This document shows, one piece after another, positions 3,997 to 26,549 of a stretch of DNA of 36,191 nucleotides. How positions within the stretch are numbered: position 1 is the first letter of the stretch; each line of letters begins with the position of its first letter. Source of the stretch: Candidatus Cloacimonadota bacterium (lineage in GTDB: Bacteria > Cloacimonadota > Cloacimonadia > Cloacimonadales > JAMOQM01); the NCBI GenBank assembly GCA_027064005.1, contig JAMOQM010000108.1, forward strand, positions 1 to 36,191. The letters run 5' to 3'. The position numbers and the translations under genes are program-made. Under the pieces are notes generated by a model. That model was given only the letters and a program-made list of their open reading frames with translations. It was not told where the DNA came from and did no database searches.

Positions 3997-4047
3997 CTGT
4001 TTAAATTGTTTCATAAATTCAACTGTTTATTAAACTAATTTCTCCCC

Positions 4048-4101
4048 TTAACACAATCTTAACAATTCCTTTATTTTTAATTAACATTCGAATAGTATAA
4101 T
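4048..4101 (+). promoter_or_regulatory. Candidate Pho box plus -10 element
   Basis: TTAACA at 4048, 4059 and 4081 (11- and 22-bp spacing), then TATAAT at 4096-4101. Confidence 0.6.
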
Positions 4102-4130
4102 TATACGAAAGAAAAAATGAAGGAGGTAAA

Positions 4131-5183: not shown

Positions 5184-5199
5184 AAAAATAGGAGACAAA

Positions 5200-6039
5200 A
5201 TGAAAAAATCAACAAAAATTATCTTGATCGGATTAGTAGTAATGATGATGTCTGTTTCAGCTTTTGCGAGAGGGAAAAAATCAACAATTACAATTGCCGG
5301 TTCAACAACTGTTTTACCGATAGCTCAGGCAACAGCTGAAGTATTTATGGATAAAAATCCTGATATTAATATTTCTGTTCGAGGAGGAGGTTCAAGTGTG
5401 GGAATAGCTTCCATTATGTCTGGTACAGTTGATATCGGAGATGCTTCTCGACATATAAAAAACAAAGAACTTGCTGCTGCAAGAAAATCAGGAATTAATA
5501 TTGTAGAACATATTGTGGCAAATGACGGAATTACAATTGTTCTAAATAATTCAAATACAATAGATGCTCTTACATTATCTCAATTAAAAGATATTTATAC
5601 CGGAAAAATCCAAAATTGGAAAGAACTTGGTGGGAAAAATATGCCAATCGTTGTTGTTTCAAGAGATGTTTCTTCAGGAACTTTTGAAGTATTTAACAAA
5701 CTTGTTTTAAAAAATGCAAAAGGTTTGAATAGTGCATTGATGCTGGCATCCAATAATGCAGTGGTTACGACTATTTCAACAACTCCGGGAGCAATTGGTT
5801 ATGTAGGATTGGGATATGTTACCGATAAAATAAAAGCTGTTTCTGTTGATGGAGTAAAAGCAACTGAAAAAACAATTCAAACGAAAGAATATCCAATTTC
5901 CAGAACTTTGCAAATGTACACAAGAGGTATTCCGACTGGTATTGTAAAACAATATATAGATTTTGTTCTCTCTCCTGAAGGGCAAGATATTGTCGAGCAA
6001 CAAGGATTTATAAGAATTATGGATGATAAAAATAAATGA
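5200..6039 (+). CDS. pstS: Phosphate ABC transporter substrate-binding protein
   Basis: ITIAGSTTVLPIAQATAEVFMDKNPDINISVRGGGSSVGIASIMSGTVDIGDASR; signal peptide. Confidence 0.95.
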   Translation: MKKSTKIILIGLVVMMMSVSAFARGKKSTITIAGSTTVLPIAQATAEVFMDKNPDINISVRGGGSSVGIASIMSGTVDIGDASRHIKNKELAAARKSGINIVEHIVANDGITIVLNNSNTIDALTLSQLKDIYTGKIQNWKELGGKNMPIVVVSRDVSSGTFEVFNKLVLKNAKGLNSALMLASNNAVVTTISTTPGAIGYVGLGYVTDKIKAVSVDGVKATEKTIQTKEYPISRTLQMYTRGIPTGIVKQYIDFVLSPEGQDIVEQQGFIRIMDDKNK

Positions 6040-6050
6040 TAAATTATGAA

Positions 6051-6093
6051 ATAAGCCTTCGGAATGGTATTTTATTACCTTCCGAATGCTTAT
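6051..6093 (+). terminator. Intercistronic hairpin between pstS and pstC
   Basis: ATAAGCCTTCGGAATGGTA-ttttat-TACCTTCCGAATGCTTAT, imperfect long stem followed by aaaaaac rather than a T-tract. Confidence 0.55.
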
Positions 6094-6137
6094 AAAAAAC
6101 AATGTAACAAAATTAGTAATGAAATAAGGATAAATTT

Positions 6138-7010
6138 ATGAAATCAATGAAAACATTCAATGAAAAGCTTTTTAAGTCAATTACATATCTTGCTACATTA
6201 TTTACAATTTTATGTTTAGGTGGAATAATAATCACAATTTTTTCCGAGGGTTTACCAATTTTAAAATATTCAAAATTAAATGAACTTTTTGGGATAGCTT
6301 GGCATCCTACAAGTTTCCCGCCGGAATTCGGATTCTTGCCGTTGATTGCCGGCTCGATAATTATTACGATCGGAGCTTTAATTATAGCAATTCCCTTTGG
6401 CATCGGTTCTGCAATATATATTTCTGAAATTGCAGGAAATAGAACAAAAGAGATAATCAAACCAATCATTGAGCTTCTCGCAGGAATTCCTTCTGTTGTT
6501 TACGGCTTATTTGGAATGGCTTTTCTCTCTCCTTTTTTGATAAGAATTTTTAGGATTCCAACCGGATTGAATGCTCTTTCCGCTTCAATAATTCTTGGAA
6601 TAATGGTAATTCCGATAATATCAAGTATGAGTGAAGATGCTCTTTCTGCTGTTCCCAAAAATCTAAGAGAAGCTTCTTTGGCACTTGGTGCTACAAAATG
6701 GGAAACAATTATAAAAGTTGTTCTTCCTTCAGCAAAAAATGGAGTTGTAGGAAGTATTACTTTAGGCTTTGGAAGAGCAATTGGTGAAACGATGGTTGTA
6801 ATAATGGTTGCCGGTGGAGCTGCTCAAATTCCTTCTTCAATATTTCAACCTGTTCGCCCTATGACAACTGCAATCGCTGCGGAAATGGGAGAAACCGTAA
6901 ATGGAAGTCCTCATTTTCACGCACTATTTGCTATATCAATTATCTTGTTTCTAATCACTTTTATTACAAATTTTATTACTGAATTTGTATTTTTAAAAAG
7001 GAAAAATTAA
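6138..7010 (+). CDS. pstC: Phosphate ABC transporter permease PstC
   Basis: [65 protein letters not shown]. Confidence 0.95.
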   Translation: MKSMKTFNEKLFKSITYLATLFTILCLGGIIITIFSEGLPILKYSKLNELFGIAWHPTSFPPEFGFLPLIAGSIIITIGALIIAIPFGIGSAIYISEIAGNRTKEIIKPIIELLAGIPSVVYGLFGMAFLSPFLIRIFRIPTGLNALSASIILGIMVIPIISSMSEDALSAVPKNLREASLALGATKWETIIKVVLPSAKNGVVGSITLGFGRAIGETMVVIMVAGGAAQIPSSIFQPVRPMTTAIAAEMGETVNGSPHFHALFAISIILFLITFITNFITEFVFLKRKN

Positions 7011-7870
7011 TGAAAATAAATAAACGTAAAATTAATCAAATCATTGGAATTAATCTTCTTCGCTTTTTCCTGCTCTGCACTTTATTATTCATTATAATAT
7101 TTCTCTATATTATTTTCAGTAAAGGCGGAAAAGTTATTTCTTGGGAATTTCTAACGCAATCACCAAGAAAATTTATGACGGAAGGCGGCATTTTCCCGGC
7201 AATTGTCGGAACTTTTTGGCTAACAATTTTATCAATTGCAATCGCTTTCCCCTTTGGAATTTTTACAGCAATTTATATGACTAATTATGCAAAATCAAAT
7301 TTATTTCTTAAAATTGTAAGAATTTCCGTAAACACACTTGCAGGAACTCCATCTATAATTTATGGTCTTTTTGGACTAACGGTTTTTGTGCGATTTTTCG
7401 GTATGGATGTTTCAATGTTGGCAGGTTCACTTACTTTAGCGATACTAGTTTTACCTGTGATTATCAATAATACAGAAGAAGCTATCCGTAATGTTCCTGC
7501 TGATTTTATAAAAGCATCATTGGCACTGGGAGCAACTCAAAAACAAACTATTTTACGAGTGATTATTCCAACTGCTTTACCGGCAATTTTAACAGGTACG
7601 ATTATTAGTATTGGTAGAGTTGCAGGTGAAACAGCTCCGATATTATTTACAGCTGCGACTTTTTATACTCGCAAATTACCACAATCTGTTATGGATGAAG
7701 TTATGGCGCTTCCATATCAAATTTATGCACTTCTCACTGAAGGAGCTCACCCCGAGAAGCAAATTCCTATTGCTTATGGAACAGCTGTTGTCCTGCTATC
7801 ATTTGTTTTGATTGTCAGTGGAATTGCAATATTAATCAGATACAAAATGAGGAGAAATAGAAAATGGTAA
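7010..7870 (+). CDS. pstA: Phosphate ABC transporter permease PstA
   Basis: [70 protein letters not shown]. Confidence 0.95.
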
Positions 7871-8619
7871 ACAAACATATTCAAACAAATGATTTTAATT
7901 TATGGTTTGGAAACAAGCATATTTTACACAATATTTCTATTCCTGTGTATGATAAAAAAATAACAGCATTAATTGGACCATCCGGTTGTGGAAAATCAAC
8001 TTTACTTCGCTCTTTCAACAGAATGAACGATTTAATTCCGGAAACCAAAATCAAAGGAAAAGTAATGCTTTTTGATGATGATATTTATAAACCAAAAATT
8101 GATGTTACAAAAATTAGAGCTCAGGTCGGAATGGTTTTTCAACGTCCAAATCCATTCCCGAAGTCTATTTATAAAAATGTTGCCTACGGATTAGAGATAA
8201 GAGGTGAAAAAAAATCACATATCGATGAAGCAGTGGAAAGAAGTTTGAGAAGCGCTTGGCTTTGGAACGAAGTAAAAGATAGATTAAATGATTCGGCTTT
8301 TTCATTATCCGGTGGTCAACAACAAAGACTTTGTATAGCAAGAGCCTTGGCAAATGACCCGAAAATTATTTTACTTGATGAACCAACTTCCGCTCTTGAT
8401 CCGCAATCAACAGCAAAAATTGAGGAACTCTGCATTGAACTTCGTGATAAAGTTACTATTCTGATTGTAACCCATAATATCGCTCAAGCAGGTAGAATTT
8501 CCGATTATACAGCATTTATGTATCTCGGAGAAATAATTGAATTTGGCGAAACAAAAAAAGTGTTCACTGTTCCCAAAAAGAAACAAACCGAAGCTTATTT
8601 GAATGGTGTTTTTGGATAA
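7864..8619 (+). CDS. pstB: Phosphate ABC transporter ATPase PstB
   Basis: [78 protein letters not shown]. Confidence 0.97.
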
Positions 8620-8846
8620 GCAGGTCATAAAATGTTGGAGAAGTTTTTTGCATTTGAGATTATTTTCATTTGATCTGATCTTTTCATATTTGACATATCT
8701 CAATTTAATATTGACAATATTGATATATGCTTAAATATAATAGTATCTTTTCTTCAACAATTTTAATGTATGTACAGCAAGCTATTGCATCACCAGAAGA
8801 AAAAATTTTTATGACAATAGAATAAAAAACACAATATCAGGAGAAA

Positions 8847-9497
8847 ATGATGATTTATAAAATGGATGAATTTAAAAAGAAGGTAATCCTTCAAGCCGGA
8901 ACAGTAGAATTTATGTTTGAACTATTTATAGAAAATCTTCAAAGAAAGAATGAAAAAAAGTTGAAAGAAATTTTCCTCTTAGAAGAAAAAGTAAATACAA
9001 AAGAGATAGAAATCGAAGAAGATATTATTGGTATGATAGCACTTTATCAGCCGGAAGGAAAAAATCTTAGAACTGCTTTAATGATTATGAAAATGAATAA
9101 TGATTTGGAAAGAGTAGGTGATTTAGTAAGCGATATGGCTAACTTTTATTTATCTGATTCAATGGGACACAATTTTAAATTCCTTGAAAAACTTATTCTT
9201 ATGTGTAAAAAATCTTACGAAATGTTAAAAGAAAGCATTGAATCATTTATAAAGGAAGATCCTATCATTGCAAAAACAGTCTGTGAAAAAGATGATTTTG
9301 TTGATGATTTACACTCTGAACTAAGAAAAGATATTATTAAATATGTTCAAAAAAATCCTACTGAAACTGAAAAAATTTTAAATTACTATAATATTATTTT
9401 TAAAATTGAACGAATTGCCGACCTTGCCACAAATATTGCTGAAGAAGCAATCTATTTATCAAAAGGCAAAGATATTAAACACGGATTGTTTGGATAA
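8847..9497 (+). CDS. phoU: PhoU-domain phosphate signalling protein
   Basis: EEKVNTKEIEIEEDIIGMIALYQPEGKNLRTALMIMKMNNDLERVGDLVSDMANF ... IFKIERIADLATNIAEEAIYL. Confidence 0.85.
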   Translation: MMIYKMDEFKKKVILQAGTVEFMFELFIENLQRKNEKKLKEIFLLEEKVNTKEIEIEEDIIGMIALYQPEGKNLRTALMIMKMNNDLERVGDLVSDMANFYLSDSMGHNFKFLEKLILMCKKSYEMLKESIESFIKEDPIIAKTVCEKDDFVDDLHSELRKDIIKYVQKNPTETEKILNYYNIIFKIERIADLATNIAEEAIYLSKGKDIKHGLFG

Positions 9498-11864: not shown

Positions 11865-14093
11865 ATTAATAGAAAAGGAATTTGTTTTATTAAATTTGTT
11901 TTATTCATTGTTTTATTAAATATTTCACCTAAGATTTTTGCCAATCCTAAACTGGATACTTATATCCAATCTAGCTTCACAAAATTTTCAAATAATAAAT
12001 ATGATAATTCTTCTACTTTCTTTTCTCATAAATCTATTATAGTTTGGGGAACCCATTCCGATGACGAAGATGAAGCGGATATTAACGAAACAATGGCGGA
12101 AAATGTTGTTGATTTCAGAATTAAAAAATGGCTAAACCACGAAAATAATGTTGTAAAAGTCATTCCTGATACAGATGTTACTTTGTCAGATTTACAAAAC
12201 TACAACCTGATCTTGGTTGGAACTCCATCTTCAAATATATATTTGAAGAAAATTACTAAATTTCTGCCAATAAAAATTACTGAAGATGAAATTATCGCCG
12301 ATAATAAGAAATTTGAAGGTGATGAAGTTGGAATCAATTTCCGTTATGCAAATCCTTATAATCCCAAAACCCAAATTTGGATAATTTCAGCTCCGTCTTA
12401 TGAAGCTCTGCGTTTTATTCCGAAAAAACAAGATTATTGCATTTATCAACTTACAAGTTACAATCCGTCTGCTGATCGCTTTAAAGAGCTCGCTATTGGG
12501 AATTTCTCAAAAAAATGGAATCTTAAAAAATTAGCTTTGGTTGATACTGTCTCTATTGAAACTGACGAAAATAATCCTATCAAAGTATCGGAATTAAAGA
12601 ATTTTCCATCTCCAAATTGGATTAAAACCGGTGTGATGTATGAGATTTTTGTACGAAGTTTTTACGATAGTGATGGCGATGGTATTGGTGATTTGAATGG
12701 AATTACGAAAAAGCTGGATTATCTCAATGATGGGAATCCTGACACTGATACTGATTTGGGAATTAAAACTATTTGGTTGATGCCGATTTTCGAATCACCG
12801 AGTTATCATGGTTATGATGTTACAAATTATTTAAAAATAAATCCCGATTATGGTACAAATGAAGATTTTAGAAAATTGTTGCGAGAAGCACATAAAAGAG
12901 GAATAAAAATTATTACCGATATAGCTTTGAATCACTGTTCTTCTCAACATAGATTTTTTAAAGACGCTTACGGGAATTTAAAATCAAAATATTCTGATTG
13001 GTTTTATTTTACAAATCCTTCTCATACTAAAGCTGATAATTGGGAATTCCGAACCAATAAAAAAGATAAAGATATGCTCGATCCGCCAATGCCGGCTTGG
13101 AATGTGAATAATCCTAAAGTGGCAAAATATTTATTTGATGCTGCTAAATATTGGCTCGATCCGAATAAAGACGGTGATTTTTCTGACGGTATTGACGGTT
13201 TTAGATGCGATTATGTAAAAGGACCTCCCAAAGAATTTTGGCAAAATTTTAGACAAGAAGTTAAAGCGATTAATCCGAACATTTTGCTTTTAGCTGAAGA
13301 TTGGGAAGGATTGGATTCGATAGCAAAAGATTTTGATAATGAATTTGATATGGCATTTGATTTTCCGTTTCAAGGAAGTTTGATGGAAGCTGTTTCGGAA
13401 GGGAATGCCCGTGATTTTATCCATTTGATTATGAGCGAAAAAGATGCTTTACCGAAAAATGCCGTGATGAACCGATTTGTAAATAATCATGATATGAATA
13501 GAATTTCTTCCGTTTTGAGATCCGAACAAGTTAAATTGGCTTTTGTAACATTGTTGACTTTCCCCGATATGCCAATGCTTTATTACGGAGATGAGATTGG
13601 GATGAAAGGAATTAAAGATCCTTATGATGAAGGGATTCGCCGTCCAATGGAATGGACTTCTTTAAATTCTTCTAAAGGTACCACAAATTGGTATCCTGCC
13701 TGGTCAAATGAAAAAGATGGGATTTCGGTCGAAGAAGAATCAAAAGATAAAAATTCGCTTTTTAATTTTGTGAAGAAATTAATTGCTCTCAGAAATGAAA
13801 ATAGCGTCTTTGAAACAGGGAAAGTGAAATTTAATAGCGTAATAATCAATTCCGGAGATGATGCTGAAGATTATAAACGAGCAATTTCTTATACTGTTTC
13901 TAATAAAAAAGATAGTTTTGTTGTAGTAGAAAATCTTTATAAAGAGAAAAATCTAACTATTGAGCTTTCTAAAAATCAGGAAATCACTGCAAAAGAAATA
14001 ATAAAACAAGATGGTGTTAATTATAAAATTATCGGAAATAAACTTAGCGGTTTTTTCCCAAATAGAAGTTTTTTAATAATTAAAATAAAATAG
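11865..14093 (+). CDS. Secreted GH13 alpha-amylase family protein with N-terminal accessory domain (start likely upstream of tracked ATG, at ATT)
   Basis: GH13 motifs: DIALNHCS, DGFRCDYVKG, LLLAEDWE, FVNNHDMNR. Frame extends upstream of 12093 to a signal peptide INRKGICFIKFVLFIVLLNISPKIFA behind SD GAGGAGG (11853-11859). Confidence 0.8.
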   Translation: MNRKGICFIKFVLFIVLLNISPKIFANPKLDTYIQSSFTKFSNNKYDNSSTFFSHKSIIVWGTHSDDEDEADINETMAENVVDFRIKKWLNHENNVVKVIPDTDVTLSDLQNYNLILVGTPSSNIYLKKITKFLPIKITEDEIIADNKKFEGDEVGINFRYANPYNPKTQIWIISAPSYEALRFIPKKQDYCIYQLTSYNPSADRFKELAIGNFSKKWNLKKLALVDTVSIETDENNPIKVSELKNFPSPNWIKTGVMYEIFVRSFYDSDGDGIGDLNGITKKLDYLNDGNPDTDTDLGIKTIWLMPIFESPSYHGYDVTNYLKINPDYGTNEDFRKLLREAHKRGIKIITDIALNHCSSQHRFFKDAYGNLKSKYSDWFYFTNPSHTKADNWEFRTNKKDKDMLDPPMPAWNVNNPKVAKYLFDAAKYWLDPNKDGDFSDGIDGFRCDYVKGPPKEFWQNFRQEVKAINPNILLLAEDWEGLDSIAKDFDNEFDMAFDFPFQGSLMEAVSEGNARDFIHLIMSEKDALPKNAVMNRFVNNHDMNRISSVLRSEQVKLAFVTLLTFPDMPMLYYGDEIGMKGIKDPYDEGIRRPMEWTSLNSSKGTTNWYPAWSNEKDGISVEEESKDKNSLFNFVKKLIALRNENSVFETGKVKFNSVIINSGDDAEDYKRAISYTVSNKKDSFVVVENLYKEKNLTIELSKNQEITAKEIIKQDGVNYKIIGNKLSGFFPNRSFLIIKIK

Positions 14094-14107
14094 TCTGTGG
14101 AGGAATT

Positions 14108-15304
14108 ATGAAAAAAAGAATATTTGTAATATCATTGTTTTCCTTAATGTTAAACATGTTGTTTTCACAAACACAAATAGTATTATGGCACTCATATCGA
14201 GGAGCTGAAAAAACTGCAATAAATAAGGTTGTGGCTAATTTTAATGCTCAAAATAAAGATGTAAAAATCAAAGCTTTGGCTGTTCCGTTCGATGCTTTTC
14301 CTGATAAAATAACAGCTGCTATTCCCCGTGGAAAAGGACCTGATATCTTTATTTTTGCTCACGACAGAATAGGCGGTTGGGTAGAAGGAAATGTTATTGA
14401 ACCTCTTGATTATTATTTAGATGACGATATAAGCGAAAATTTTGTAGAAGGTGCATATAAACCAATGGTTTATAATGAATCTCTTTACGGACTGCCAATG
14501 GCTGTAAAATCTATTGTTCTTTATTACAACACAGATTTATTGAAAAATCCACCTAAAACAACTGACGAAATGATTGCAGTGGCAAAAAAATTTACCGATC
14601 CTAAATCCGGAAAATACGGACTTGTTTATGAAAATGCAAATTATTATTACAATGCCTGTTGGATGCAAGGTTTCGGAGGACGTGTTTTCGATAAAAACAA
14701 TCATCCGATAATCAATTCACCGGAATGTGTCCGATCTTTTCAATTTTCACAAGATTTGTTTTTAAAAGATAAAATTGTTCCGCCGGAAGTTTCCAATATT
14801 TTGGTGACAACTCTATTTAATGAAAATAAGGCGGCAATGGCTATCAGTGGACCTTGGTTTAGAGGAGAAATAGCCAAAAACATACATTATAAAGTTGCAC
14901 TTCTTCCTATAATTTCCGAAACAAATACTCGAGCATTACCGTTTATGAGTTCAGAAGGTGTTATGATGAGTGCCAAATCTAAAAATAAAGATGCTGCCTT
15001 TAAAGTTATGAAGTATTTGGTTAACGATGAATCTGCTTACATTATGGCGAAAATCGGGAAACAACCTGTTGCCAATAAATCTGTTTATTCTCATAAAGAT
15101 ATTGCCGATGATCCGTTTTTACCTATTTTCAAAAAACAAATTAAATATTCAATTCCGATGCCAAGTATTCCCCAAATGACATTTGTTTGGTCTCCGGCTT
15201 CGAGTGCGATAAATGCGGTTATCAATGGTGAATCTCCTAAGAAAGCTTTGGACAAAGCTGAAAATACTGTTCTGAAAAACCTAAAAGCTGCCGGATTTAA
15301 ATAG
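14108..15304 (+). CDS. malE: Maltose/maltodextrin-type ABC transporter substrate-binding protein
   Basis: Signal peptide; QIVLWHSYRGAEKTAINKVVANFNAQNKDVKIKALAVPFDAFPDKITAAIPRGKGPDIFIFAHDRIGGWVEGNVIEPL. Confidence 0.9.
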   Translation: MKKRIFVISLFSLMLNMLFSQTQIVLWHSYRGAEKTAINKVVANFNAQNKDVKIKALAVPFDAFPDKITAAIPRGKGPDIFIFAHDRIGGWVEGNVIEPLDYYLDDDISENFVEGAYKPMVYNESLYGLPMAVKSIVLYYNTDLLKNPPKTTDEMIAVAKKFTDPKSGKYGLVYENANYYYNACWMQGFGGRVFDKNNHPIINSPECVRSFQFSQDLFLKDKIVPPEVSNILVTTLFNENKAAMAISGPWFRGEIAKNIHYKVALLPIISETNTRALPFMSSEGVMMSAKSKNKDAAFKVMKYLVNDESAYIMAKIGKQPVANKSVYSHKDIADDPFLPIFKKQIKYSIPMPSIPQMTFVWSPASSAINAVINGESPKKALDKAENTVLKNLKAAGFK

Positions 15305-15313
15305 GATTTTCTA

Positions 15314-17083
15314 ATGAAAAAATCTACTAAGTGGAAGATTTCATCTTTTATTATCCTGATTATATTTTTTGGGTTAATTTATCAGAAGCTTTTAACCAAT
15401 ATTAGTGTTGATCAAGAAGAGAAATATACAATTGAAAATGCTCAAATTGTCGTAAATTCTTTATCAAAAGATTTGGAAGATAATGGATTTAATTTTTCTA
15501 AAGATCAGGAATTTATTAATAAAATCAAAAATGATCAAAGCAATATTAACGAAATAAGTATTGTTTTAGGAAGAAAATATTTTGTTAGTACTAATTCAAA
15601 TTTAACGGCAAAAAAGATATCTAAAAAAATATTCGACATCCAAAAAAAAATAAAGTTTGAATTTAAAAAAACTAAAAATGTTAAAATAAAATCTACCGTG
15701 ATTAAAGGGAAATATGCCTTCTATAAACCAATCATTATCAAGGGAAAATTTAAAGGATTGGTAATTGTCAAAAATACGAAAGAGACCTTTTTTAAAGCTA
15801 ATTTTTCAAGTACTTTTCTAATTTTTACTTTGATTATCTTAGTCGGATTATTGATTCTAATGGAAATATTTCTGCCAAAATATCAAATGATTGTTGGAAT
15901 TGCTTTGTTTGCCATATCCATTTTGATGATTAACAACAATATTGGACAGAAACTTCAAAAAAATGTTGATTCTTGGAATATTCAGAAACAAAATCTTGCT
16001 GAAAATTTTAGGACAAAATTGGGAATTACAAATCAAATCTCTTTACCAAAAACTCAAATTACTGTTAGTCAATCAGTTAAAGTTTGGAATATTTCTTTTA
16101 TTTTAATTGGAACTATCTTGCTTCTTCTGGTTTATTTAAATGTAGTTCAGAGATTTTTTGAAACTCTTTATGAATATCGTGAGGCGTATTTTTATATTTT
16201 ACCCGCGATGACGGGAGTTTTTCTTCTTGTATTTTTCCCTTTTATTTACGGAATTCTAATTGGATTTACCGATTATAATCTTACAAATTTCAGTACAAAT
16301 TTGGTTACGTATTTTACCAACATTAGTAACTATACTTTTTCTAATTTCATAAATATTTTAAAAGTCTTTAATCTTCATGATTATAATAATTTCTATTTTA
16401 CTTTGATTCATACTATCGTTTGGACTGTATTGAACTTATTTTTTCATGTTACAATTGGTGTTGCTTTAGCTTTGCTATTGAATAATCCCAGATTAAAAGG
16501 GCGAACTTTTTTTAAAATTTTGTTGATTTTACCGTGGGCGATTCCAAATTATATTACTTCGCTTATTTGGAAAGGAATGTTCCATAAACAGTTTGGAGCA
16601 ATCAATGGTTTGTTACAAACTTTAGGTTTTCAACCGATTAGTTGGTTTACGCAAGCTCATACAGCGTTTATTGCCAATTTAGTAACAAATGTTTGGTTAG
16701 GATTTCCTTTTATGATGATTATTGCACTCGGTGCTCTTCAAAGTATTCCTAAAGAATTATATGAAGCTTCGGCAATTGATGGTTCAACGAAATGGCAATC
16801 ATTTTGGACGGTTACGGTTCCATTATTAAGACCGGCAATGATTCCGGCGATAATTTTAGGTACTATTTGGACGTTTAATCAATTTAATGTGATTTATCTT
16901 GTTTCCGGTGGCGGACCTGACGGAGCTACGGAATTGCTGATAACAGATGCTTATAAAATGGCTTTTGAACAATATCGATATGGTTACGCAGCAGCGTATT
17001 GCATCATAATTTTTATAATCTTATTAGGTTATGGTTCGTTCACTTCTAAAATTTCGAAAGCAACTCAAGGAGCTTATGAATGA
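15314..17083 (+). CDS. malF: MalF-like ABC permease with long N-terminal membrane/extracytoplasmic extension
   Basis: C-terminal half carries EASAIDGSTKWQSFWTVTVPLLRPAMIPAIILGTIWTFNQFNVIYLVSGGGP; N-terminal ~270 aa has extra TMs and a sensor-like domain. Confidence 0.88.
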   Translation: MKKSTKWKISSFIILIIFFGLIYQKLLTNISVDQEEKYTIENAQIVVNSLSKDLEDNGFNFSKDQEFINKIKNDQSNINEISIVLGRKYFVSTNSNLTAKKISKKIFDIQKKIKFEFKKTKNVKIKSTVIKGKYAFYKPIIIKGKFKGLVIVKNTKETFFKANFSSTFLIFTLIILVGLLILMEIFLPKYQMIVGIALFAISILMINNNIGQKLQKNVDSWNIQKQNLAENFRTKLGITNQISLPKTQITVSQSVKVWNISFILIGTILLLLVYLNVVQRFFETLYEYREAYFYILPAMTGVFLLVFFPFIYGILIGFTDYNLTNFSTNLVTYFTNISNYTFSNFINILKVFNLHDYNNFYFTLIHTIVWTVLNLFFHVTIGVALALLLNNPRLKGRTFFKILLILPWAIPNYITSLIWKGMFHKQFGAINGLLQTLGFQPISWFTQAHTAFIANLVTNVWLGFPFMMIIALGALQSIPKELYEASAIDGSTKWQSFWTVTVPLLRPAMIPAIILGTIWTFNQFNVIYLVSGGGPDGATELLITDAYKMAFEQYRYGYAAAYCIIIFIILLGYGSFTSKISKATQGAYE

Positions 17084-17916
17084 TTAACGGCAAATCAAAA
17101 AAAGGATTATTCTTTTCTTACCTAATTTTGACAATTGTGTCTCTCATAACAATTTATCCGGTGTTGTGGGTTTTAAAAGTTGCTTTTGGGGGAACGTCTT
17201 TATTAAGTACTTCTTTAAGTTTGATTCCTCAACATATTTCTTTAGATAATTTTAAAGAAATAATTTATGATAAACCATTCCTTTTGTGGTTAAAAAATAG
17301 TGTTATTGTTTCCGGTGTTACAACAATTTCCAGTTTATTTTTAGCAACAACTGCCGGTTATGCTTTTTCAAGATTTAAATTTCCCGGTCAAAAAGAAGGA
17401 TTGTTGGCTCTTTTGGTGACCCAAATGTTTCCCGGTGTTTTGATGATTATTCCGCAATTTATTCTTATCTCAAGTGTTCTGCATCTTTATGGCTCATTAT
17501 GGGGATTAGTTATAATTTATAGCACGACTGCTTTACCGTTTTCAATTTGGATTTTAAAAGGTTATTTTGATACAATCCCAATTTCTTTGGAAGAATCCGC
17601 AAGAATTGACGGAGCGTCGAGAAGCAGAGTTTTCTGGCAAATCATTATTCCTTTAAGCAAACCTTCCATAGCAATAACTGCACTTTTTTCTTTTATGACA
17701 GCTTGGAACGAATTTATTTTAGCAGCTACATTTTTGGATTCTGAAGCAAAATATACTTTACCAATCGGTTTAAAACAAATGGTCGGAGAATTTGGTGCCG
17801 AATGGGGTCATTTTGCAGCTTCTTCAATCTTGGTTGCAATTCCGGTTGTTGTACTTTTCATGATTTTTCAAAAATTCCTCATCTCCGGTTTGACTGCCGG
17901 CGGTGTAAAAGGATAA
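17080..17916 (+). CDS. malG: MalG-like ABC permease
   Basis: EESARIDGASRSRVFWQIIIPLSKPSIAITALFSFMTAWNEFILAATFL; ATGA overlap with malF. Confidence 0.92.
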   Translation: MINGKSKKGLFFSYLILTIVSLITIYPVLWVLKVAFGGTSLLSTSLSLIPQHISLDNFKEIIYDKPFLLWLKNSVIVSGVTTISSLFLATTAGYAFSRFKFPGQKEGLLALLVTQMFPGVLMIIPQFILISSVLHLYGSLWGLVIIYSTTALPFSIWILKGYFDTIPISLEESARIDGASRSRVFWQIIIPLSKPSIAITALFSFMTAWNEFILAATFLDSEAKYTLPIGLKQMVGEFGAEWGHFAASSILVAIPVVVLFMIFQKFLISGLTAGGVKG

Positions 17917-17933
17917 ATAACAAAGGAGGATAT

Positions 17934-18755
17934 ATGATTAGAAAAAAAATCACGTTTCTTGTCGTTTTGTTGAGCTTTTCAATGATATTAACGGCAGGGA
18001 CAAAGATTACTTTCGAAGATCCGAAAGGTGATGACAAAGGACCGGGGACTTATACTTATCCAACCGATCCGATTTATGTTCATGGCTCATTTGATTTAAC
18101 AAAAGCTGTGATAAGTGATAAAGGAAAAACTGTCGAATTTAAAATTTATTTTAACGCACCGGTTTCTTTTAATTGGGGTGATTTTTGGGATGTTCAACAA
18201 ATTCAAATTTATTTGGATCTTGCAAAAGGCGGACATACAAAAACTATTCCTGGTACGCAAGTTGTTGTAGATAAAAACGATGCTTGGGATAAAGTTGTAT
18301 TTGTTGATCCTCATACAGTTTCTAAAATTAATGGTGAAATTGGAATGAAAGCAAAAGATTTGAAAAATGACATTGTACTTCCTGAAAAAATTAAACCGAT
18401 TGGTAAATCCTTAAAAGCTATTGTTAAAAAATCTGATCTTGGTGTTCCCGATGATGCTGATATTTCAAAATGGGGTTATGGAATTCTTATGTTAAGTGCA
18501 ACAGGATTCCCCGGTAATTGGTGTGTGTTAATGCGTCGTGTTAACGAATATGAAGGTCAACATCGTTTTGGCGGTGGATCTGATGGTGCTGGAGATCCTA
18601 ATGTAATTGATATGTTTGTAGATAACGCTGACGGTTCAAAAGACGAGGCTCAAATTCAATATGATATGTTGAATAAATGGAAAAGCGGATCTGACCCTGA
18701 AGATATGTCGAAAGATAAATTATCAATAATCAAACTGGTTTATCCCGGTAAATAA
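17934..18755 (+). CDS. Secreted Glucodextran_C/DOMON-like domain protein
   Basis: Start corrected to 17934 (SD aaaggagg; MIRKKITFLVVLLSFSMILTAG signal). FEDPKGDDKGPGTYTYPTDPIYVHGSFDLTKAVISDKGKTVEFKIYF is the Glucodextran_C-type opening. Confidence 0.8.
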   Translation: MIRKKITFLVVLLSFSMILTAGTKITFEDPKGDDKGPGTYTYPTDPIYVHGSFDLTKAVISDKGKTVEFKIYFNAPVSFNWGDFWDVQQIQIYLDLAKGGHTKTIPGTQVVVDKNDAWDKVVFVDPHTVSKINGEIGMKAKDLKNDIVLPEKIKPIGKSLKAIVKKSDLGVPDDADISKWGYGILMLSATGFPGNWCVLMRRVNEYEGQHRFGGGSDGAGDPNVIDMFVDNADGSKDEAQIQYDMLNKWKSGSDPEDMSKDKLSIIKLVYPGK

Positions 18756-18775
18756 GGAATTTAAAAGGAGATATA

Positions 18776-20698
18776 ATGAAAAAAATTATTTTGATAGTTC
18801 TGGCTATGTTTTTAGTTGGATCAGTATTTGCTAATATTGATATTAGCGGTAAAATTTATAGTCAGTACAGATGGACGAATTCATCAGGAAATGCCTATTG
18901 GAACAGTCCTAATTTTGGTTCATTTTCAAGCGGTGCTTCAGTTTGGCCTGGTTATGGCAGATTAGATAAAAAATTTGCTAACTTCCTCAGAACCGAATCT
19001 GAATTTACCGTAAATGCAAATGTCTCAAAATACGTTAAAGCTTATGTAAGAGTTAAAACAATATTTAATTCTGATGAAACAAACGGCGATGGAGAACAAA
19101 GTGCTTCAGCTTGGGCTGATGATTGGGACAATGCGAGAGGATTTTTCAAATTAAGAGGATTCTTAATTAAACTCAATCCTAATAACAATTTTATTAAATC
19201 AATTGATCTTGGAACTCCAATGGGTTTACCTTTCAATAAATGGCTTGTTTCGGACAGAAGATATATTGATCGTGATAATCTAAAAGGTATTGTTGTTAGA
19301 GGTCATCAAATTAGTGATAAATTTAGTTGGAATTTTGCCAGAATGTGGAATGCCGGATATATGGGACCGGGCTGGAACAGTTTGAATACATTTAGATCTG
19401 AAGATGGTACTTATGCTGCAAGCTTTAAGTTAAATGTTAATGATGATGCTTGGATTTCCAATCTTAACTTTATGTATTATTCCGATACAAATTTGGACCC
19501 TAAAGATGAAGATCTTACCGGAACTGATGATGGCAATATTAAAGCTAAAGATGATTATGATGAATTTGGTATAACTTATGAATCCAATTATAATCTTACT
19601 GATGAAATTGGTGTTGATCTTTTAGGAATATTTACAAATCAAAAATTTGCAGATAGATTAGATGCTAATGATGATAATATTGCTGATAATCTTGCGTGGG
19701 TTACTCCTTTAACTCCTGCTCATTGGTGGGGAATAAACGAACCTTATGCGGATATCAATACTTTTAGTGGTATTCTTTCTTTGAATACAACTGATCCGTT
19801 TGATGTTGGAATTACTCCAAAAGCTCAATTTTTCTATATTGATAACAATCTTTATACTCCATTCGGAAGTAGAAGAGAAGATGATATGTTAATGATTCAC
19901 GGTGGTTTGAATGCTCTTGCTTTTACAAGTGGAGACGATACTGCCGAAGGCGGGCGACAACATCAAAGTCTTAATACATTCTTGTACGGTGGCGGTCAAT
20001 CTGCTGTTAATGAAGCAATGACAGACAATAATTTCCTCCGTTTAGGCGAAGATTTTTATGAAACTGCCATCGGATATACAGGTGGAACTTTAGAAAGTGA
20101 TTTTGATCTTGGTAATTTCTCTATTAATGCTCAAGGTAACTATATTTTGAGAACTGATAATAATGATGGAAAAATTAATGAAAAAAACGATAATTATGAT
20201 GGAAACGATACAACAAATGCTTGGTATTATAAAGTACCGCATGATTTTAAAGCAATTGTCGGTGATGTTTCCGCAAAAACTGCAATTAACGGTTATAACT
20301 TAAAAGCCAATGTAAAATATGGAAACTGGCAAGATGTTAAAGCTGATTATTACGGTGATAGTTTAACTCCAGTTGGAACTCACGCAGTTGAATGCACGGC
20401 TATGGTTTTTGAAATAACAGCTCAAAAACAACTAACAAAATCAATTAGCTATGAATTTAGACCTCGTTATCAAACCGTATTATTCAATGAATCAGGAATA
20501 GATTTCAGCGGAAATGCTTTTGATAATGATTATTCTAATAATGATGTAATGTTTAACCAAAAAATAGTCTATAATTTCGGTGGATTTGATTTTTGGTTGA
20601 GAAGTGAAAATGTAATTCGTAAATTCAAAAGTGAAGGTGCCGATGACCTTAAATTGAACTGGGGTACGGTTCATGCAGCTTTTGAAGTAAAATTCTAA
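18776..20698 (+). CDS. Large outer-membrane beta-barrel protein, probable maltodextrin channel
   Basis: Signal peptide MKKIILIVLAMFLVGSVFA; many amphipathic beta strands; C-terminal strand GTVHAAFEVKF ending in Phe; position in the mal cluster. Confidence 0.65.
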   Translation: MKKIILIVLAMFLVGSVFANIDISGKIYSQYRWTNSSGNAYWNSPNFGSFSSGASVWPGYGRLDKKFANFLRTESEFTVNANVSKYVKAYVRVKTIFNSDETNGDGEQSASAWADDWDNARGFFKLRGFLIKLNPNNNFIKSIDLGTPMGLPFNKWLVSDRRYIDRDNLKGIVVRGHQISDKFSWNFARMWNAGYMGPGWNSLNTFRSEDGTYAASFKLNVNDDAWISNLNFMYYSDTNLDPKDEDLTGTDDGNIKAKDDYDEFGITYESNYNLTDEIGVDLLGIFTNQKFADRLDANDDNIADNLAWVTPLTPAHWWGINEPYADINTFSGILSLNTTDPFDVGITPKAQFFYIDNNLYTPFGSRREDDMLMIHGGLNALAFTSGDDTAEGGRQHQSLNTFLYGGGQSAVNEAMTDNNFLRLGEDFYETAIGYTGGTLESDFDLGNFSINAQGNYILRTDNNDGKINEKNDNYDGNDTTNAWYYKVPHDFKAIVGDVSAKTAINGYNLKANVKYGNWQDVKADYYGDSLTPVGTHAVECTAMVFEITAQKQLTKSISYEFRPRYQTVLFNESGIDFSGNAFDNDYSNNDVMFNQKIVYNFGGFDFWLRSENVIRKFKSEGADDLKLNWGTVHAAFEVKF

Positions 20699-20713
20699 GA
20701 AAAGGAGAGAAAA

Positions 20714-21448
20714 ATGAAGAAAATTTTAGTATTGGTCAGTCTCGTAATTGCCGTTTTAGGTCTAGGTTTATTAACTTCTTGTTCGGATGACGATGATACT
20801 ACTGCACCGGTTGTAACAGGGGTAACTTTCAAAGTTGTTGATGGAACTAATTCCTACTCAAACATCAAAGTAAAAGGTGCTTTTAATGAATGGGTTCCTG
20901 TTGCTATGAATCAAGACGGAAACGTTTGGACTGTGACAATTGATGTTCCTGACACACTGGCAGCCGGTACTTATGAATGGGGTGCAATTGAAGATGACGG
21001 CTCAGAATGGGGAATTTGGTTAATTGACGGTCCTAACCCTACTGTTGATATTAATGAAAACGGATTTGGTTCTGCTGAATACGATATTCCTGAACCACAA
21101 GGAACAGTTAACGTTACTTTAAATGTTGATATGAATGCAGTTGATCCAATTTCTGCTGATGGCGTTCACGTTGCCGGTTCTTTCCAAAATTGGGATCCGG
21201 CTGGAACTGAAATGACCGATGACGATGGTGATGGAATCTATTCCGTAACTGTAGAAATGGAAATGAACAGTACTATTCAATTCAAGTTTTTAAATGGAAA
21301 TGCTTGGGGTGACGGAATCCAAGAAGTTGTTCCTGAAGATTGCGGTGTTGATGATCAAAATGGTGGATTTAACAGACAAGAAACTGTTCCGACTACCGAT
21401 GCATCATTTACTTATGTTTTCAGCGGTGAACCTGTAGAAGGTAAATAA
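20714..21448 (+). CDS. Lipoprotein with two tandem starch-binding (CBM20/48-like) domains
   Basis: Lipobox LLTSCSDD; KVKGAFNEWVPVAMNQDGNVWTVTIDVPDTLAAGTYEWGAIEDDG and VHVAGSFQNWDPAGTEMTDDDGDGIYSVTVEMEMNSTIQFKFLNG. Confidence 0.75.
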   Translation: MKKILVLVSLVIAVLGLGLLTSCSDDDDTTAPVVTGVTFKVVDGTNSYSNIKVKGAFNEWVPVAMNQDGNVWTVTIDVPDTLAAGTYEWGAIEDDGSEWGIWLIDGPNPTVDINENGFGSAEYDIPEPQGTVNVTLNVDMNAVDPISADGVHVAGSFQNWDPAGTEMTDDDGDGIYSVTVEMEMNSTIQFKFLNGNAWGDGIQEVVPEDCGVDDQNGGFNRQETVPTTDASFTYVFSGEPVEGK

Positions 21449-21458
21449 ATTAATAGGG

Positions 21459-21487
21459 CGGATGATTAAGTCATCCGTCTTCTTTTT
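21459..21487 (+). terminator. Terminator hairpin after starch-binding lipoprotein
   Basis: cggatga-ttaag-tcatccg followed by tcttcttttt; abuts the next ATG. Confidence 0.65.
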
Positions 21488-22528
21488 ATGAAATATATTC
21501 AAATTTTTCTTATCCTCCTATTTTTTTCTATCTTAAATTCAAAAACTATTTTAGATCTCAAAGACAATACTTTTGATGATTATGGTAACGGAAAAGTAAT
21601 TTATCCCGATAATCCTATTTTTAAAAAAGGTATTTTTGATATCACAGAGTTTAAAATAGAAGAAAATCCCAATTCCTATAAATTCAAAATAATTGTTAGA
21701 ACAAAAATTAACAAAATAAAAAATACCGGTCTTTTGCAATCCAATAATATTAATGATGATTTTTATTTGCCATTAGTCCAACTTTATCTTGTTGAAAAAG
21801 ATGACAGGAATATCGGATTAAAAAAATTATTGCCGGGTGTAAATGCATCTTTAGAAAATAATTATTCTTGGAATAAAGTTATTGTTTTTACCTCGATTCC
21901 ATCGGATTTTAAAAGTTCGCTATCTTCAATAAACCACCATCTCATTCAAAATGTTATTTTTCCGAAAAACATTAAATACTATAAAAATTCTATCACCGGA
22001 ATTGTATCAAAAAATAGAATTAAATTAGATAAAGAAACAGGTTATTCTTTGATTATGCTCGGTCATAATTTTTCAAATTTAAGGAATAATGTTTACGTTA
22101 TTCCGGTAAGATCTGTATCAGGACAATATAATTTCGGAGGTGGGGAACAGAATATTTTGAAAAGATATAATTCCAATATTATTGACTTGATTTGCCCACC
22201 CGAAAATTCACAAGAAAAAATGCTTTCTTCCTATAATCAAAATTTAAAAAAATACGCCAAAATTATTCCATATTTTAAAAACAAACAGAATTATGTAAAA
22301 TTGGATAAATATTTTGAGATTAAAGAAATATCCGGATACAAAATCATTATTAATGCCGGTTCAAAAGATAATCTTAAATCAGGAGATGAATTAATAATTG
22401 ATGATGAATTTATTGCTGTCATAAAAGATGTTTTTCCAACTCTCAGTATTGCCGAAATTTTAAATCATAAAGAAATGAAAAATATAAATAAAGAAATGAA
22501 AATAAGAAAATTAACTAAAGAAAATTAA
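21488..22528 (+). CDS. Second Glucodextran_C-like secreted protein with C-terminal extra domain
   Basis: ILDLKDNTFDDYGNGKVIYPDNPIFKKGIFDITEFKIEENPNSYKFKIIVR and QYNFGGGEQNILKRYNSNIIDLICPP parallel the 17934 protein; C-terminal GYKIIINAGSKDNLKSGDELII is FlgT-C-like. Confidence 0.65.
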   Translation: MKYIQIFLILLFFSILNSKTILDLKDNTFDDYGNGKVIYPDNPIFKKGIFDITEFKIEENPNSYKFKIIVRTKINKIKNTGLLQSNNINDDFYLPLVQLYLVEKDDRNIGLKKLLPGVNASLENNYSWNKVIVFTSIPSDFKSSLSSINHHLIQNVIFPKNIKYYKNSITGIVSKNRIKLDKETGYSLIMLGHNFSNLRNNVYVIPVRSVSGQYNFGGGEQNILKRYNSNIIDLICPPENSQEKMLSSYNQNLKKYAKIIPYFKNKQNYVKLDKYFEIKEISGYKIIINAGSKDNLKSGDELIIDDEFIAVIKDVFPTLSIAEILNHKEMKNINKEMKIRKLTKEN

Positions 22529-22537
22529 GAGGAGATT

Positions 22538-25500
22538 ATGAAGAAAATACTAATTGCTTTACTTGTCGTTTTGAGTTTTTCGCTATTTGCAGAACAAATA
22601 GATTTAACCGTTCATTATCATCGATATAATAGTGATTATGCCGGTTGGGGATTACATTTGTGGGGAGCTGTTCAAGAATCCGGAGGAACTTTCGTTATTG
22701 ATGGGCAAACTTATGATTGGCAAAATGCTTTGCCGTTTTCTGATGATGATTCTTACGGAAAAGTGGTTACTTTTCCCGTTGATGATACTACACCGCTCGG
22801 TTTTATCGTTCATAAAGGTGATGAAAAAGATCCGCCGAATCTTGATAGAAATTTCAACGATTACGATCAAACTCACGAAATTTGGCTTTTACAAGGAATT
22901 GCAGATATTTTTTATTCCGAACCCAGTGTTGAAATTCGGGTAAAATCAGCTTTTAGTGACGGGATAAATACAATCAATATCGTAATGACGGGAGCAATTG
23001 ATAATTATCAAAATAGGTTTGAGATTTATAAAAATAATGTTTTGGAAAATACAGATTCTATAACTGAGACAGGAAGTACAATTAGTGTTATTTTGAGTAA
23101 TTCCATAGATATTACGCAAGTTTATAAAGTTTATGATTCTGAAGTTCAAGATACAATTTTTGTTCAACATCATTTTCCTGAAGATCAATATGTTTATGAT
23201 GGTAACGATTTAGGATTTACCTATTCTGCCAATTCAACTCAATTCAAATTATGGAGTCCAACCGCTTCCGAAGTGAATGTACTATTGTATTCAACTCCGT
23301 CCGATAATTCTGAAGAACCGCAATCTTATCCAATGGTTAGAGAAAATGACGGTGTTTTCGTGACAAATGTAGATGGTGAGTTGAATGGAAAATACTATCT
23401 CTATCAAATTACAATGTACGGAGAAACTTATACGACTCCGGATCCATATTCCAAAGGCGTTTCAACAAATACGAAAAGAAGTATGATTTTTGATGATGCG
23501 ATGACTAATCCTGACGATTGGCAAAGTGATTCATCACCTGTTTTAGAAAATTTGACTGATGCTATTATTTATGAATTTCATATCAGAGATTTAACAATTA
23601 ATGATACTTGGAATGGAACAGAAGCAAATCGCGGAAAATATCTCGGTGTTGCGGAAACCGGAACAAGTTATAACAATATTGCTACCGGGATTGACCATAT
23701 TTCCGATTTAGGTGTCAATTGTGTTCAAATCCAACCATTTTATGATTTTGGAAGTGTTGATGAAACAAATTCTCTTTCGCGAAATTGGGGATATGATCCA
23801 ATGCTTTATAATACGCCGGAAGGAAGTTATTCTTCAAATTCGGATGATATTTCCAGAATTATTGAGACAAAATCCATGATTAAAGCTTTTCATGATAAAG
23901 GTATAAAAGTAATTATGGACGTGGTTTACAATCATACTTTCCATACCGGACATAATTCTGCTTTTGATTCAGCTGTTCCGAATTATTATTATATTATGAA
24001 TGATGACGGTGAATATGAAAATTGGACAGGTTGCGGAAATACAATTGATACCGATAAACCGATGGTACAAAATTTTATTCTTCAATCTGTAAAATATTGG
24101 GTGAACGAGTATCATGTTGACGGGTTTAGATTTGATTTAATGGGATTGATTAATACAAATTTGATGGAATCCGTAGTAGATTCTTTAAAAGAAATAAAAC
24201 CTGATATCCTTGTTTACGGTGAGCCTTGGGGTGGTTGGGGAGCACCGATTATGACCGGTAAAGGAGATCAGAGAAGTAAAGGCTTTGGTTGTTTTAATGA
24301 TAATATTAGAAATGCAATTCGCGGAGATACTGATGGAACAAATCGCGGTTATGCAATGGGAAAAACCTCAAGTTGGAATGCTGTTAAAAAAGGTGTGATG
24401 GGTTCAATAAATGATTTCACTGATTTTCCTTCTGAAACTATAAATTATATTTCTGCTCATGATAATTATACTTGGTGGGATAAATTGAAAAGAACGGTTA
24501 CCGGATTACCAGATGACGCTTTAATTCGTATGGATAAATTAGGTAACGGCATAATATTAACTTCTCAAGGAATTCCTTTTTTACATGCCGGAGTGGAATT
24601 TTTAAGAACAAAAAGAGCTCCCGGAGCAACCGAAGAACAGGTTCGAAATAGTTACAATGCCAATGATGAAGTAAATAAATTGGACTGGGCAAGATTGGCT
24701 GACAATATTGAGGTAAATAATTATTATAAAGGTTTAATTCAATTACGAAAATCTCATAAGGAATTTCGTTTGGATACTGCCGAAGAAATTACCAATCATC
24801 TGCATTTTGAAAATAACAATATGAACGGAGTTATGCTCTATACTATTGATGATGTTACACCTGATGATAATTGGGGTGATATTTTGGTAGCATACAATCC
24901 AACCGGTTCAACTCAACATCCTATTTTGCCTGCCGGAGAATGGAATGAAGTTGTCAATTCAGAACAAGCAGGGATTGATGTCATTTCTCATTTTAACAGC
25001 AGTTCAGGTGGTTTTGAATGTTCGTTCGAAATGCCGGCTTACAGTATGGTTGTGATGTACAAAGATAATTCCGATAATATAAATTTGAATATTTTCCAAA
25101 ATGCAGGTTTAAATAACTATCTTCATTTTGCTGTGAATACAACTAATTCCGAGATAAATGCAATTTCCGTTAAAGCAAATAATTCAAATGTTATTATGGA
25201 TTCTCTTGCGGTCGGAAGCTGGTACGGTTCTTATAAAATGGAGCAAACAGGCAATATTGAGGTTTCCGTTACATCTAATATTGGAACTTCTTTAAGTAAA
25301 AATTTTGTGATTGGCAAAATTGAACCGTCAAAAACATATTCTTCGTTTGATCATAAAATGAAAATCGAATTTGACCAAAACGAACCTTCTACAAATATCT
25401 ATTTTGCAATTTTAAAAAATAATGAAGATGTTCAATTAGGCTATTATCAATTTGGTTCCGAATTAGATTTAGCCAAAAAAGCAGAAATTTCGTTCTTAAC

Positions 25501-25936
25501 TAATGATAAATCCAAAGCGATCTATCAATTTGTAAATGGAGAATGGAAAGAGTTGATTTGCAATTATCATAATCAAAGTATTTCTTCAAAAATATCTTCT
25601 TTAGGAAAATTCAAACTTGATAAAAGAACCAATTTTATTAACAAAACTCACATTATTGGCAATTATCCTAATCCTTTTATTGCTGGTGCTAATAGAGGAA
25701 TCGGTACAAATATTAAATATTTTGTTGCCAAAGATTCGAATGTAAAAATAGAAATATTCAATATCAAAGGACAAAGAATTATTACTTTGATTAATCATCG
25801 CCAAAAATCAGGAGTTCATACTATAAATTGGAATGGTAAAAATAGTAACAATAAATCTGTTGCAAGTGGTGTCCTTTTTTATAAATTAACGACAAATGAC
25901 CATTCAGAAATCAGTAAAATGCTGTTATTGAAATAA
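22538..25936 (+). CDS. pulA: Type I pullulanase (CBM41-like + CBM48-like + GH13) with C-terminal sorting domain
   Basis: DLTVHYHRYNSDYAGWGLHLWG (CBM41), SRNWGYDPMLYNTPEGSYS, DVVYNHTF, VDGFRFDLMGL, LVYGEPWGGWGAP, YISAHDNYTWWDKL; tail NYPNPF...GVLFYKLTTNDHSEISKMLLLK. Confidence 0.93.
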   Translation: MKKILIALLVVLSFSLFAEQIDLTVHYHRYNSDYAGWGLHLWGAVQESGGTFVIDGQTYDWQNALPFSDDDSYGKVVTFPVDDTTPLGFIVHKGDEKDPPNLDRNFNDYDQTHEIWLLQGIADIFYSEPSVEIRVKSAFSDGINTINIVMTGAIDNYQNRFEIYKNNVLENTDSITETGSTISVILSNSIDITQVYKVYDSEVQDTIFVQHHFPEDQYVYDGNDLGFTYSANSTQFKLWSPTASEVNVLLYSTPSDNSEEPQSYPMVRENDGVFVTNVDGELNGKYYLYQITMYGETYTTPDPYSKGVSTNTKRSMIFDDAMTNPDDWQSDSSPVLENLTDAIIYEFHIRDLTINDTWNGTEANRGKYLGVAETGTSYNNIATGIDHISDLGVNCVQIQPFYDFGSVDETNSLSRNWGYDPMLYNTPEGSYSSNSDDISRIIETKSMIKAFHDKGIKVIMDVVYNHTFHTGHNSAFDSAVPNYYYIMNDDGEYENWTGCGNTIDTDKPMVQNFILQSVKYWVNEYHVDGFRFDLMGLINTNLMESVVDSLKEIKPDILVYGEPWGGWGAPIMTGKGDQRSKGFGCFNDNIRNAIRGDTDGTNRGYAMGKTSSWNAVKKGVMGSINDFTDFPSETINYISAHDNYTWWDKLKRTVTGLPDDALIRMDKLGNGIILTSQGIPFLHAGVEFLRTKRAPGATEEQVRNSYNANDEVNKLDWARLADNIEVNNYYKGLIQLRKSHKEFRLDTAEEITNHLHFENNNMNGVMLYTIDDVTPDDNWGDILVAYNPTGSTQHPILPAGEWNEVVNSEQAGIDVISHFNSSSGGFECSFEMPAYSMVVMYKDNSDNINLNIFQNAGLNNYLHFAVNTTNSEINAISVKANNSNVIMDSLAVGSWYGSYKMEQTGNIEVSVTSNIGTSLSKNFVIGKIEPSKTYSSFDHKMKIEFDQNEPSTNIYFAILKNNEDVQLGYYQFGSELDLAKKAEISFLTNDKSKAIYQFVNGEWKELICNYHNQSISSKISSLGKFKLDKRTNFINKTHIIGNYPNPFIAGANRGIGTNIKYFVAKDSNVKIEIFNIKGQRIITLINHRQKSGVHTINWNGKNSNNKSVASGVLFYKLTTNDHSEISKMLLLK

Positions 25937-25948
25937 AGGAGTGAAATT

Positions 25949-26548
25949 ATGTTAAAAAAATATTTGATCGCAGTGATTGTTCTCGGAATGGCTCTTTTTG
26001 TTGGATGTTCCAAAAGCAGTACTTCTCATAATCCTTATGAAAATTATTCGGATCAGGAATTGTTGGATTCAGGCTGGGAAAATTATGCTAATAATGAATT
26101 TGAACAATCTCTTGATTTTTTTAATGAAATGATTAATAGGAATACAAGATTGTCGGAAGCAAATAATGGTTTGGGTTGGAGTTATGCAAAATTGGACTCT
26201 CTCTCTAAATCTTTAAATTACTTTGATGAAGCATTGGCTGAAAATCCTTCCAATCAAACTAAAGATGATTGTCTTGCAGGTAAATGTTTTGTAAAAGACG
26301 CTCAAAATCAGGCTCAAAATTGCTTAGATTATTCTTTGGAAATTTCAAATTCTTGGCAATTCGAGTATGACCAAAATCTAAATTATGATGATATTATCGT
26401 TCTGAGAGCAACCTCATTCTATTCTTTAGCAAATTTTTCATCAAGCTTAATCGAAATCCAAAAATTAGAGCCGGATTTTCAAGTTGATGTTTCGACTGTA
26501 GAAGGCAGAATTTCTCTTGCTGAAAAAATTGAATCTTTAAGGAATTAA
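25949..26548 (+). CDS. Lipoprotein with TPR-like repeats
   Basis: Lipobox ALFVGCSKS; ELLDSGWENYANNEFEQSLDFFNEMINRNTRLSEANNGLGWSYAKLDSLSKSLNYFDEALAENPSN. Confidence 0.7.
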   Translation: MLKKYLIAVIVLGMALFVGCSKSSTSHNPYENYSDQELLDSGWENYANNEFEQSLDFFNEMINRNTRLSEANNGLGWSYAKLDSLSKSLNYFDEALAENPSNQTKDDCLAGKCFVKDAQNQAQNCLDYSLEISNSWQFEYDQNLNYDDIIVLRATSFYSLANFSSSLIEIQKLEPDFQVDVSTVEGRISLAEKIESLRN

Positions 26549-26549
26549 A

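Follow-up and report, generated by a model that had tools for sequence, protein, structure and literature searches.

A predicted single-Cache-like domain fused to a MalF-type ABC permease in Cloacimonadota and other bacterial phyla

Ordinary CUT1 permeases of ABC importers, such as UgpA and SugA, work with neither a P2 loop nor a Cache domain, and the MalE-MalF fusion permeases of the Bdellovibrio type carry an additional N-terminal extracytoplasmic module, at a place equivalent to that of the domain reported here. Bce-type transporters act as co-sensors together with their kinases, and the alpha2-delta subunits of eukaryotic calcium channels bear Cache domains on a transport complex, outside the membrane. 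The fused regulatory domains of transporters of which we know are cytoplasmic; the domain reported here is predicted to lie outside the membrane. The P2 loop of Escherichia coli MalF contacts the binding protein, MalE, and the ATP cycle affects this loop (PMC3150292). A survey of Cache domains (PMC4822843), built on models that would miss the domain reported here, describes them as extracellular sensory modules with signalling outputs only, SMP_2 excepted. Fused regulatory domains figure in a review of how transporters are regulated, which also notes many transporters whose fused domains have no known function (PMC10710835). We found no report of a Cache-permease fusion in the open-access literature searched (subscription papers were outside its scope).

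The metagenome-assembled genome (MAG) of a Candidatus Cloacimonadota bacterium contains an intact open reading frame at 15314–17083 on the forward strand of the window (the whole stretch of 36,191 nucleotides that was analyzed), encoding 589 amino acids with 10 predicted transmembrane segments (TMs). The analysis (open reading frame, Pfam, hydropathy, and AlphaFold) confirmed that the product, hereafter Cache-MalF, is a MalF-type ABC permease with about 285 additional N-terminal residues. It consists, in order, of TM1 (residues 9–27; 15338–15394), about 138 residues outside the membrane predicted from AlphaFold and Foldseek to form a single-Cache-like extracytoplasmic domain (residues 28–165; 15395–15808), TM2 (169–187; 15818–15874), TM3 (192–210; 15887–15943), a short second outside segment of about 50 residues (211–255; 15944–16078), TM4 (260–278; 16091–16147), and a six-TM MalF/CUT1 permease core (291–589; 16184–17080). 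The four TMs ahead of the core were placed by hydropathy, in agreement with the original prediction, which had described one TM, about 140 residues outside, and several further TMs before the permease. That the permease itself is canonical and has an EAA loop was also borne out: the only Pfam match of the protein is to PF00528 (BPD_transp_1; residues 380–572, 1.6e-19), and the EAA loop occupies residues 484–503, with EASAIDG at 484–490. This core, the adjoining MalG and MalE-like genes, and a MalK-type ATPase in the genome place the protein among the MalF/CUT1 type I ABC permeases. The TM count and the charges fit an extracytoplasmic position of the N-terminal domain, and the same side holds the substrate-binding protein (SBP) in related fusions. 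Neither the open reading frame nor Pfam reveals a cytoplasmic output domain, only the permease following the Cache domain, and Cache-MalF, having no known signalling output domain, does not qualify as a Cache signal-transduction receptor.

The closest curated family is NF008232 (MalF), which Cache-MalF matches with 193 bits, below the equivalog cut-off of 392. Aligned to the profile, E. coli MalF shows 54 residues ahead of the core match; its two matching blocks are separated by approximately 177 residues, most of them belonging to the P2 loop, whereas the Cache-MalF family has 32 profile positions there. The extension is thus not the N-terminus of E. coli MalF, and P2 is missing.

We modeled residues 1–209 with AlphaFold, using 16 diverse relatives. 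Structure prediction had been proposed as a check on this region, and it gave a confidently folded domain with a mean pLDDT of 84 over the whole segment and mostly 90–97 in the soluble part. A long helix (3–57), continuous with TM1, is followed by helix 61–74, strands 78–85 and 88–92, helix 104–120, and strands 126–130, 133–142, and 145–155, after which comes TM2. This order is that of a single-Cache (sCache) domain, namely a PAS-like antiparallel sheet with a helix between strands 2 and 3. In Foldseek searches of the PDB, the best match was the extracellular domain of WalK (E-value 1.8e-4; TM-score by target 0.61), followed by KinD (3.7e-4) and then by the sensor domains of rpHK1S, Tlp3, DctB, and CitA; nearly all top matches were Cache domains, with few exceptions, and TM-scores to the best ones were moderate (about 0.5–0.62 by target length). 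A full-length model, in which TM3 is part of a single long helix (191–234) that runs into the periplasm, gave MalF structures as best matches and recovered WalK too, its core being so poor (pLDDT 40–70) that domain placement cannot be read from it. Sequence profiles from Pfam, NCBIfam, and the PDB gave no match above threshold to the N-terminal region, and hhalign against the sCache domain of the PhoR encoded in the window was weak (18–29% probability). On the other hand, Pfam Cache models gave sub-threshold matches in relatives (Cache_WalK at 0.0095 in one member, sCache_3_2 at 0.003 in another), and a Cache-type consensus occurs in relatives, for example at locus L132 (AHSDPDKTGQRL). Because the AlphaFold and Foldseek results, this consensus, and the sub-threshold matches concur, a Cache-like fold is supported as a prediction, outside Pfam membership. 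The segment first singled out as reminiscent of single-Cache domains ('KGKYAFYKPII...') turns out to be the last strand pair, strands 4–5 (residues 133–155; 15710–15778). The region is neither predicted to be disordered nor simply the known MalF N-terminus, which in E. coli offers only 54 residues.

Other identities were rejected. The AlphaFold model rules out a degenerate binding protein, TM1–TM2 of E. coli MalF supply 54 residues where about 285 are found here, and Cache-MalF does not belong to the SBP-MalF fusions, since its SBP is encoded by a separate gene (14108–15304) and its N-terminus models as a Cache domain.

The two parts of the protein differ widely in conservation. Within Cloacimonadota, mean identity is 31% in the Cache region versus 81% in the core, and between Cloacimonadota and other phyla it falls to 15% versus 55%. 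Despite this divergence, all 17 aligned members share K104 and D108, position 101 is a lysine or an arginine in 16 of them, and F/Y107 is kept; the resulting K-x-x-[FY]-D motif (residues 104–108; 15623–15637), at the N-terminal end of the helix that connects strands 2 and 3, was present in every member scanned. W221 of the second outside segment is likewise invariant (17/17). The Myxococcota relatives at L133, L135, and L136 have a shortened TM3–TM4 region, with this second segment reduced and the Cache domain kept.

The Cache-MalF gene lies among genes of the same strand (assigned by Pfam where so marked). Upstream are an alpha-amylase family protein (12093–14093; Pfam) and, directly ahead, the separate MalE-like SBP (PF01547; 14108–15304). 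A MalG-like permease (17080–17916) overlaps the Cache-MalF stop by four bases and is followed by a Glucodextran_C protein (PF09985; 17934–18755) found in the operon across phyla, a 640-residue protein with no Pfam match (18776–20698) that is an operon member across phyla at low identity, a CBM48-type protein (20714–21448; Pfam), a second Glucodextran_C protein (21488–22528), also kept in the operon elsewhere, a pullulanase-like protein (22538–25936), and an alpha-amylase family protein with a maltogenic amylase C-terminus (26550–28181). The 640-residue protein is probably an outer-membrane protein and would then serve as the outer-membrane channel of the system. A syntenic operon in the order amylase, SBP, Cache-MalF, MalG, Glucodextran_C, 640-residue protein, second Glucodextran_C is common to several distant phyla (12093–28181 in the window; L035–L046, L122–L126, L140, and L141). 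Wherever the contig reaches, the SBP gene is immediately upstream of Cache-MalF and MalG immediately downstream, except at L132, where the SBP gene is about 1 kb upstream; after MalG, most operons have a Glucodextran_C protein, often with the 640-residue type and the second Glucodextran_C, and amylases and pullulanases lie around. This gene content suggests that the system imports products of alpha-glucan breakdown, with maltodextrin as the putative substrate. The genome has one match to an OB_MalK-type ATPase, which is unlinked (G000:C129, 7344–8549); this gene is an orphan, with no homologue of the permease genes adjoining it. Elsewhere in the window, a histidine kinase (1799–3526) that contains both an sCache_like and a HAMP domain adjoins its response regulator and pst/phoU genes (1098–9497).

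The distribution of the architecture was surveyed with a profile of the N-terminal module; only some candidates per genome were scored, so that all counts are lower bounds. Within the order, at least 10 of 107 genomes (this one and nine others) contain the module with E < 1e-70. It was also found in at least 53 of 195 Myxococcota, including complete large genomes, at least 7 of 247 Acidobacteriota, and at least 2 of 399 Pseudomonadota (phylum samples), as well as in at least 1 of 42 genomes from the class of a 'Deltaproteobacteria' MAG. The named collection comprises eight Cloacimonadota loci together with representatives of Acidobacteriota, Myxococcales, and Nitrosomonadales and the one 'Deltaproteobacteria' MAG. 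At every locus inspected, the Cache domain was fused to MalF, and in the host genome the profile matches the Cache-MalF gene alone. Its recurrence in nine further genomes from the order, and at about 15% identity in three other phyla, shows that the module is not a chance assemblage. The taxonomic survey thus finds the architecture in Cloacimonadota, Myxococcota, Acidobacteriota, and Pseudomonadota; it had been called unusual, which holds for the open-access literature searched but not for genomes, where it is widespread and not confined to this one.

In phylogenetic trees of the core, the Cache-MalFs of Cloacimonadota form one clade (98–99% bootstrap), to which SBP-MalF fusion permeases of other Cloacimonadota are closest, with only 86–90% support. 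A single common Cache-MalF clade is not rejected (AU test, p = 0.21) against the alternative that places the SBP-MalF fusions within it. These fusion permeases, of about 770 residues, have an SBP with a signal peptide ahead of a MalF core approximately 50% identical to that of Cache-MalF (L118, 7918–10215, reverse strand; L119, 9671–12010, reverse; L120, 3500–5806; L121, 3–2240, reverse), and TM4 of Cache-MalF matches the place of the TM that follows their SBP. No homologue of the Glucodextran_C or 640-residue genes was found in the stretches fetched around these four loci. Another, distant lineage comprises SBP-permease fusions of about 820 residues that have a long MalG-type partner, and it recurs in the same order (L128, 6825–9284, reverse strand; L129, 3382–5838).

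What role may the Cache domain play? The reading that we prefer, with a confidence a little short of even, is that Cache-MalF supplies the MalF half of an importer for alpha-glucan (maltodextrin), in which the membrane-anchored sCache domain and a helical stalk of TM2–TM3–TM4 would dock the binding protein and relay its state to the core. The domain would sit in the periplasm near the entrance of the importer and act on the importer itself, and its effect should run through the permease because there is no cytoplasmic output domain. It would most likely aid docking of the separate MalE-like protein, whose loaded or unloaded state would be passed to the core via TM1/TM2 and the stalk, whether or not the Cache pocket also holds a small ligand; this is the kind of job that P2 of MalF does in E. 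coli. The N-terminal position suits recruitment of a binding protein, since related Cloacimonadota permeases hold the SBP itself there, before TM4. We favor docking and gating because this position is used for the SBP in relatives, because P2 is missing, and because divergence of the Cache domain tracks that of the SBP; fusion to MalF, flanked in several phyla by the SBP gene immediately upstream and by MalG downstream, also speaks for it. Over all operons, the partial correlation of Cache divergence is 0.31 with the SBP (0.10 to 0.51 on taxon resampling), versus 0.15 with the core and −0.03 with MalG. The Cache-SBP correlation is, however, weak, the taxa are not independent, and it fails in subgroups taken alone: among Cloacimonadota (n = 7) the Cache-MalG correlation exceeds it, and among the other phyla the Cache-core correlation is as high, both of which count against docking. 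Furthermore, UgpA and SugA indicate that a permease needs no replacement for P2, and to our knowledge Cache domains are ligand sensors, not docking domains.

Direct ligand sensing is a serious alternative, nearly as likely as docking: a small molecule of the periplasm (a sugar or some other metabolite) may bind in the Cache pocket and tune import allosterically, independently of the SBP. The nearest structural relatives found by Foldseek are sensors, Cache domains are extracellular sensory modules (PMC4822843), and transporters with fused allosteric domains are known (PMC10710835). Moreover, K104, D108, and mostly R/K101 are fixed across phyla at about 15% domain identity, as a binding site might be, although the i, i+4 spacing of K104 and D108 would also fit a structural salt bridge, and no known Cache ligand motif was recognized. 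We give somewhat less than even credence to the broader claim that an ABC sugar importer family in several phyla has its own extracytoplasmic Cache receptor, which would bind ligand and gate transport directly, without an intervening kinase or regulator.

A part in structure or assembly alone, with the domain aiding folding, membrane insertion, complex stability, or proximity of the SBP and carrying no signal, appears unlikely. It would accord with the fast evolution of the Cache domain in Cloacimonadota and with the trimming of the second outside segment in some relatives, but the domain has invariant polar residues and was not lost in any operon inspected, with the qualification that loci were found by the N-terminal profile, so that most searches miss Cache-less operons. 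That the permease is a co-sensor relaying signals to a separate regulator is very improbable: Cache domains normally feed signalling (PMC4822843), but the only histidine kinase found in the window has an sCache-like domain of its own and neighbors the pst/phoU phosphate genes, and no regulator recurs in the compared loci, in which homologues of window genes were sought. Least credible of all is that the Cache call is a modeling error and the region an unrelated alpha-beta domain, which would suit the Pfam Cache scores below cut-off, the weak hhalign result, and the moderate TM-scores but not the high pLDDT, the top PDB matches that are almost all Cache domains, or the consensus at L132.

An ABC importer with a Cache domain of its own would add transport to the list of Cache outputs. 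Among the plug-on regulatory domains known from transporters, it would also supply a case predicted to lie outside the membrane. Roughly one in four of the Myxococcota genomes searched has the fusion, complete large genomes among them, so that it is probably testable in culturable bacteria.

Of the systems already known, MalF from the E. coli MalFGK2 importer (PDB 2r6g, 3fh6) is the top relative among curated families and PDB structures and shares the six-TM core, the EAA loop, a separate binding protein, and a MalG partner; Cache-MalF differs from it in falling below the equivalog cut-off, in lacking P2, and in having approximately 230 additional residues, with the Cache domain, ahead of the core. 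The sCache sensors WalK (4ywz, 7dud) and CitA (2j80), as well as KinD (4jgo), resemble the N-terminal domain in predicted fold, in helix and strand order, and in extracytoplasmic position between TMs, but their Cache domains are joined to a kinase, a chemoreceptor, or a cyclase, whereas here the partner is an ABC permease, and Pfam Cache models miss Cache-MalF. The SBP-MalF fusions of other Cloacimonadota have a closely related core and an N-terminal extracytoplasmic module at the equivalent place, although Cache-MalF has a Cache domain as this module, with the binding protein encoded by a separate gene. Transporters with fused CBS domains, or LacS with its EIIA-like domain, resemble Cache-MalF in the idea that a plug-on domain controls transport (PMC10710835). 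The alpha2-delta protein, finally, is a separate auxiliary channel subunit that, unlike the Cache domain of Cache-MalF, is not fused to an ABC permease.
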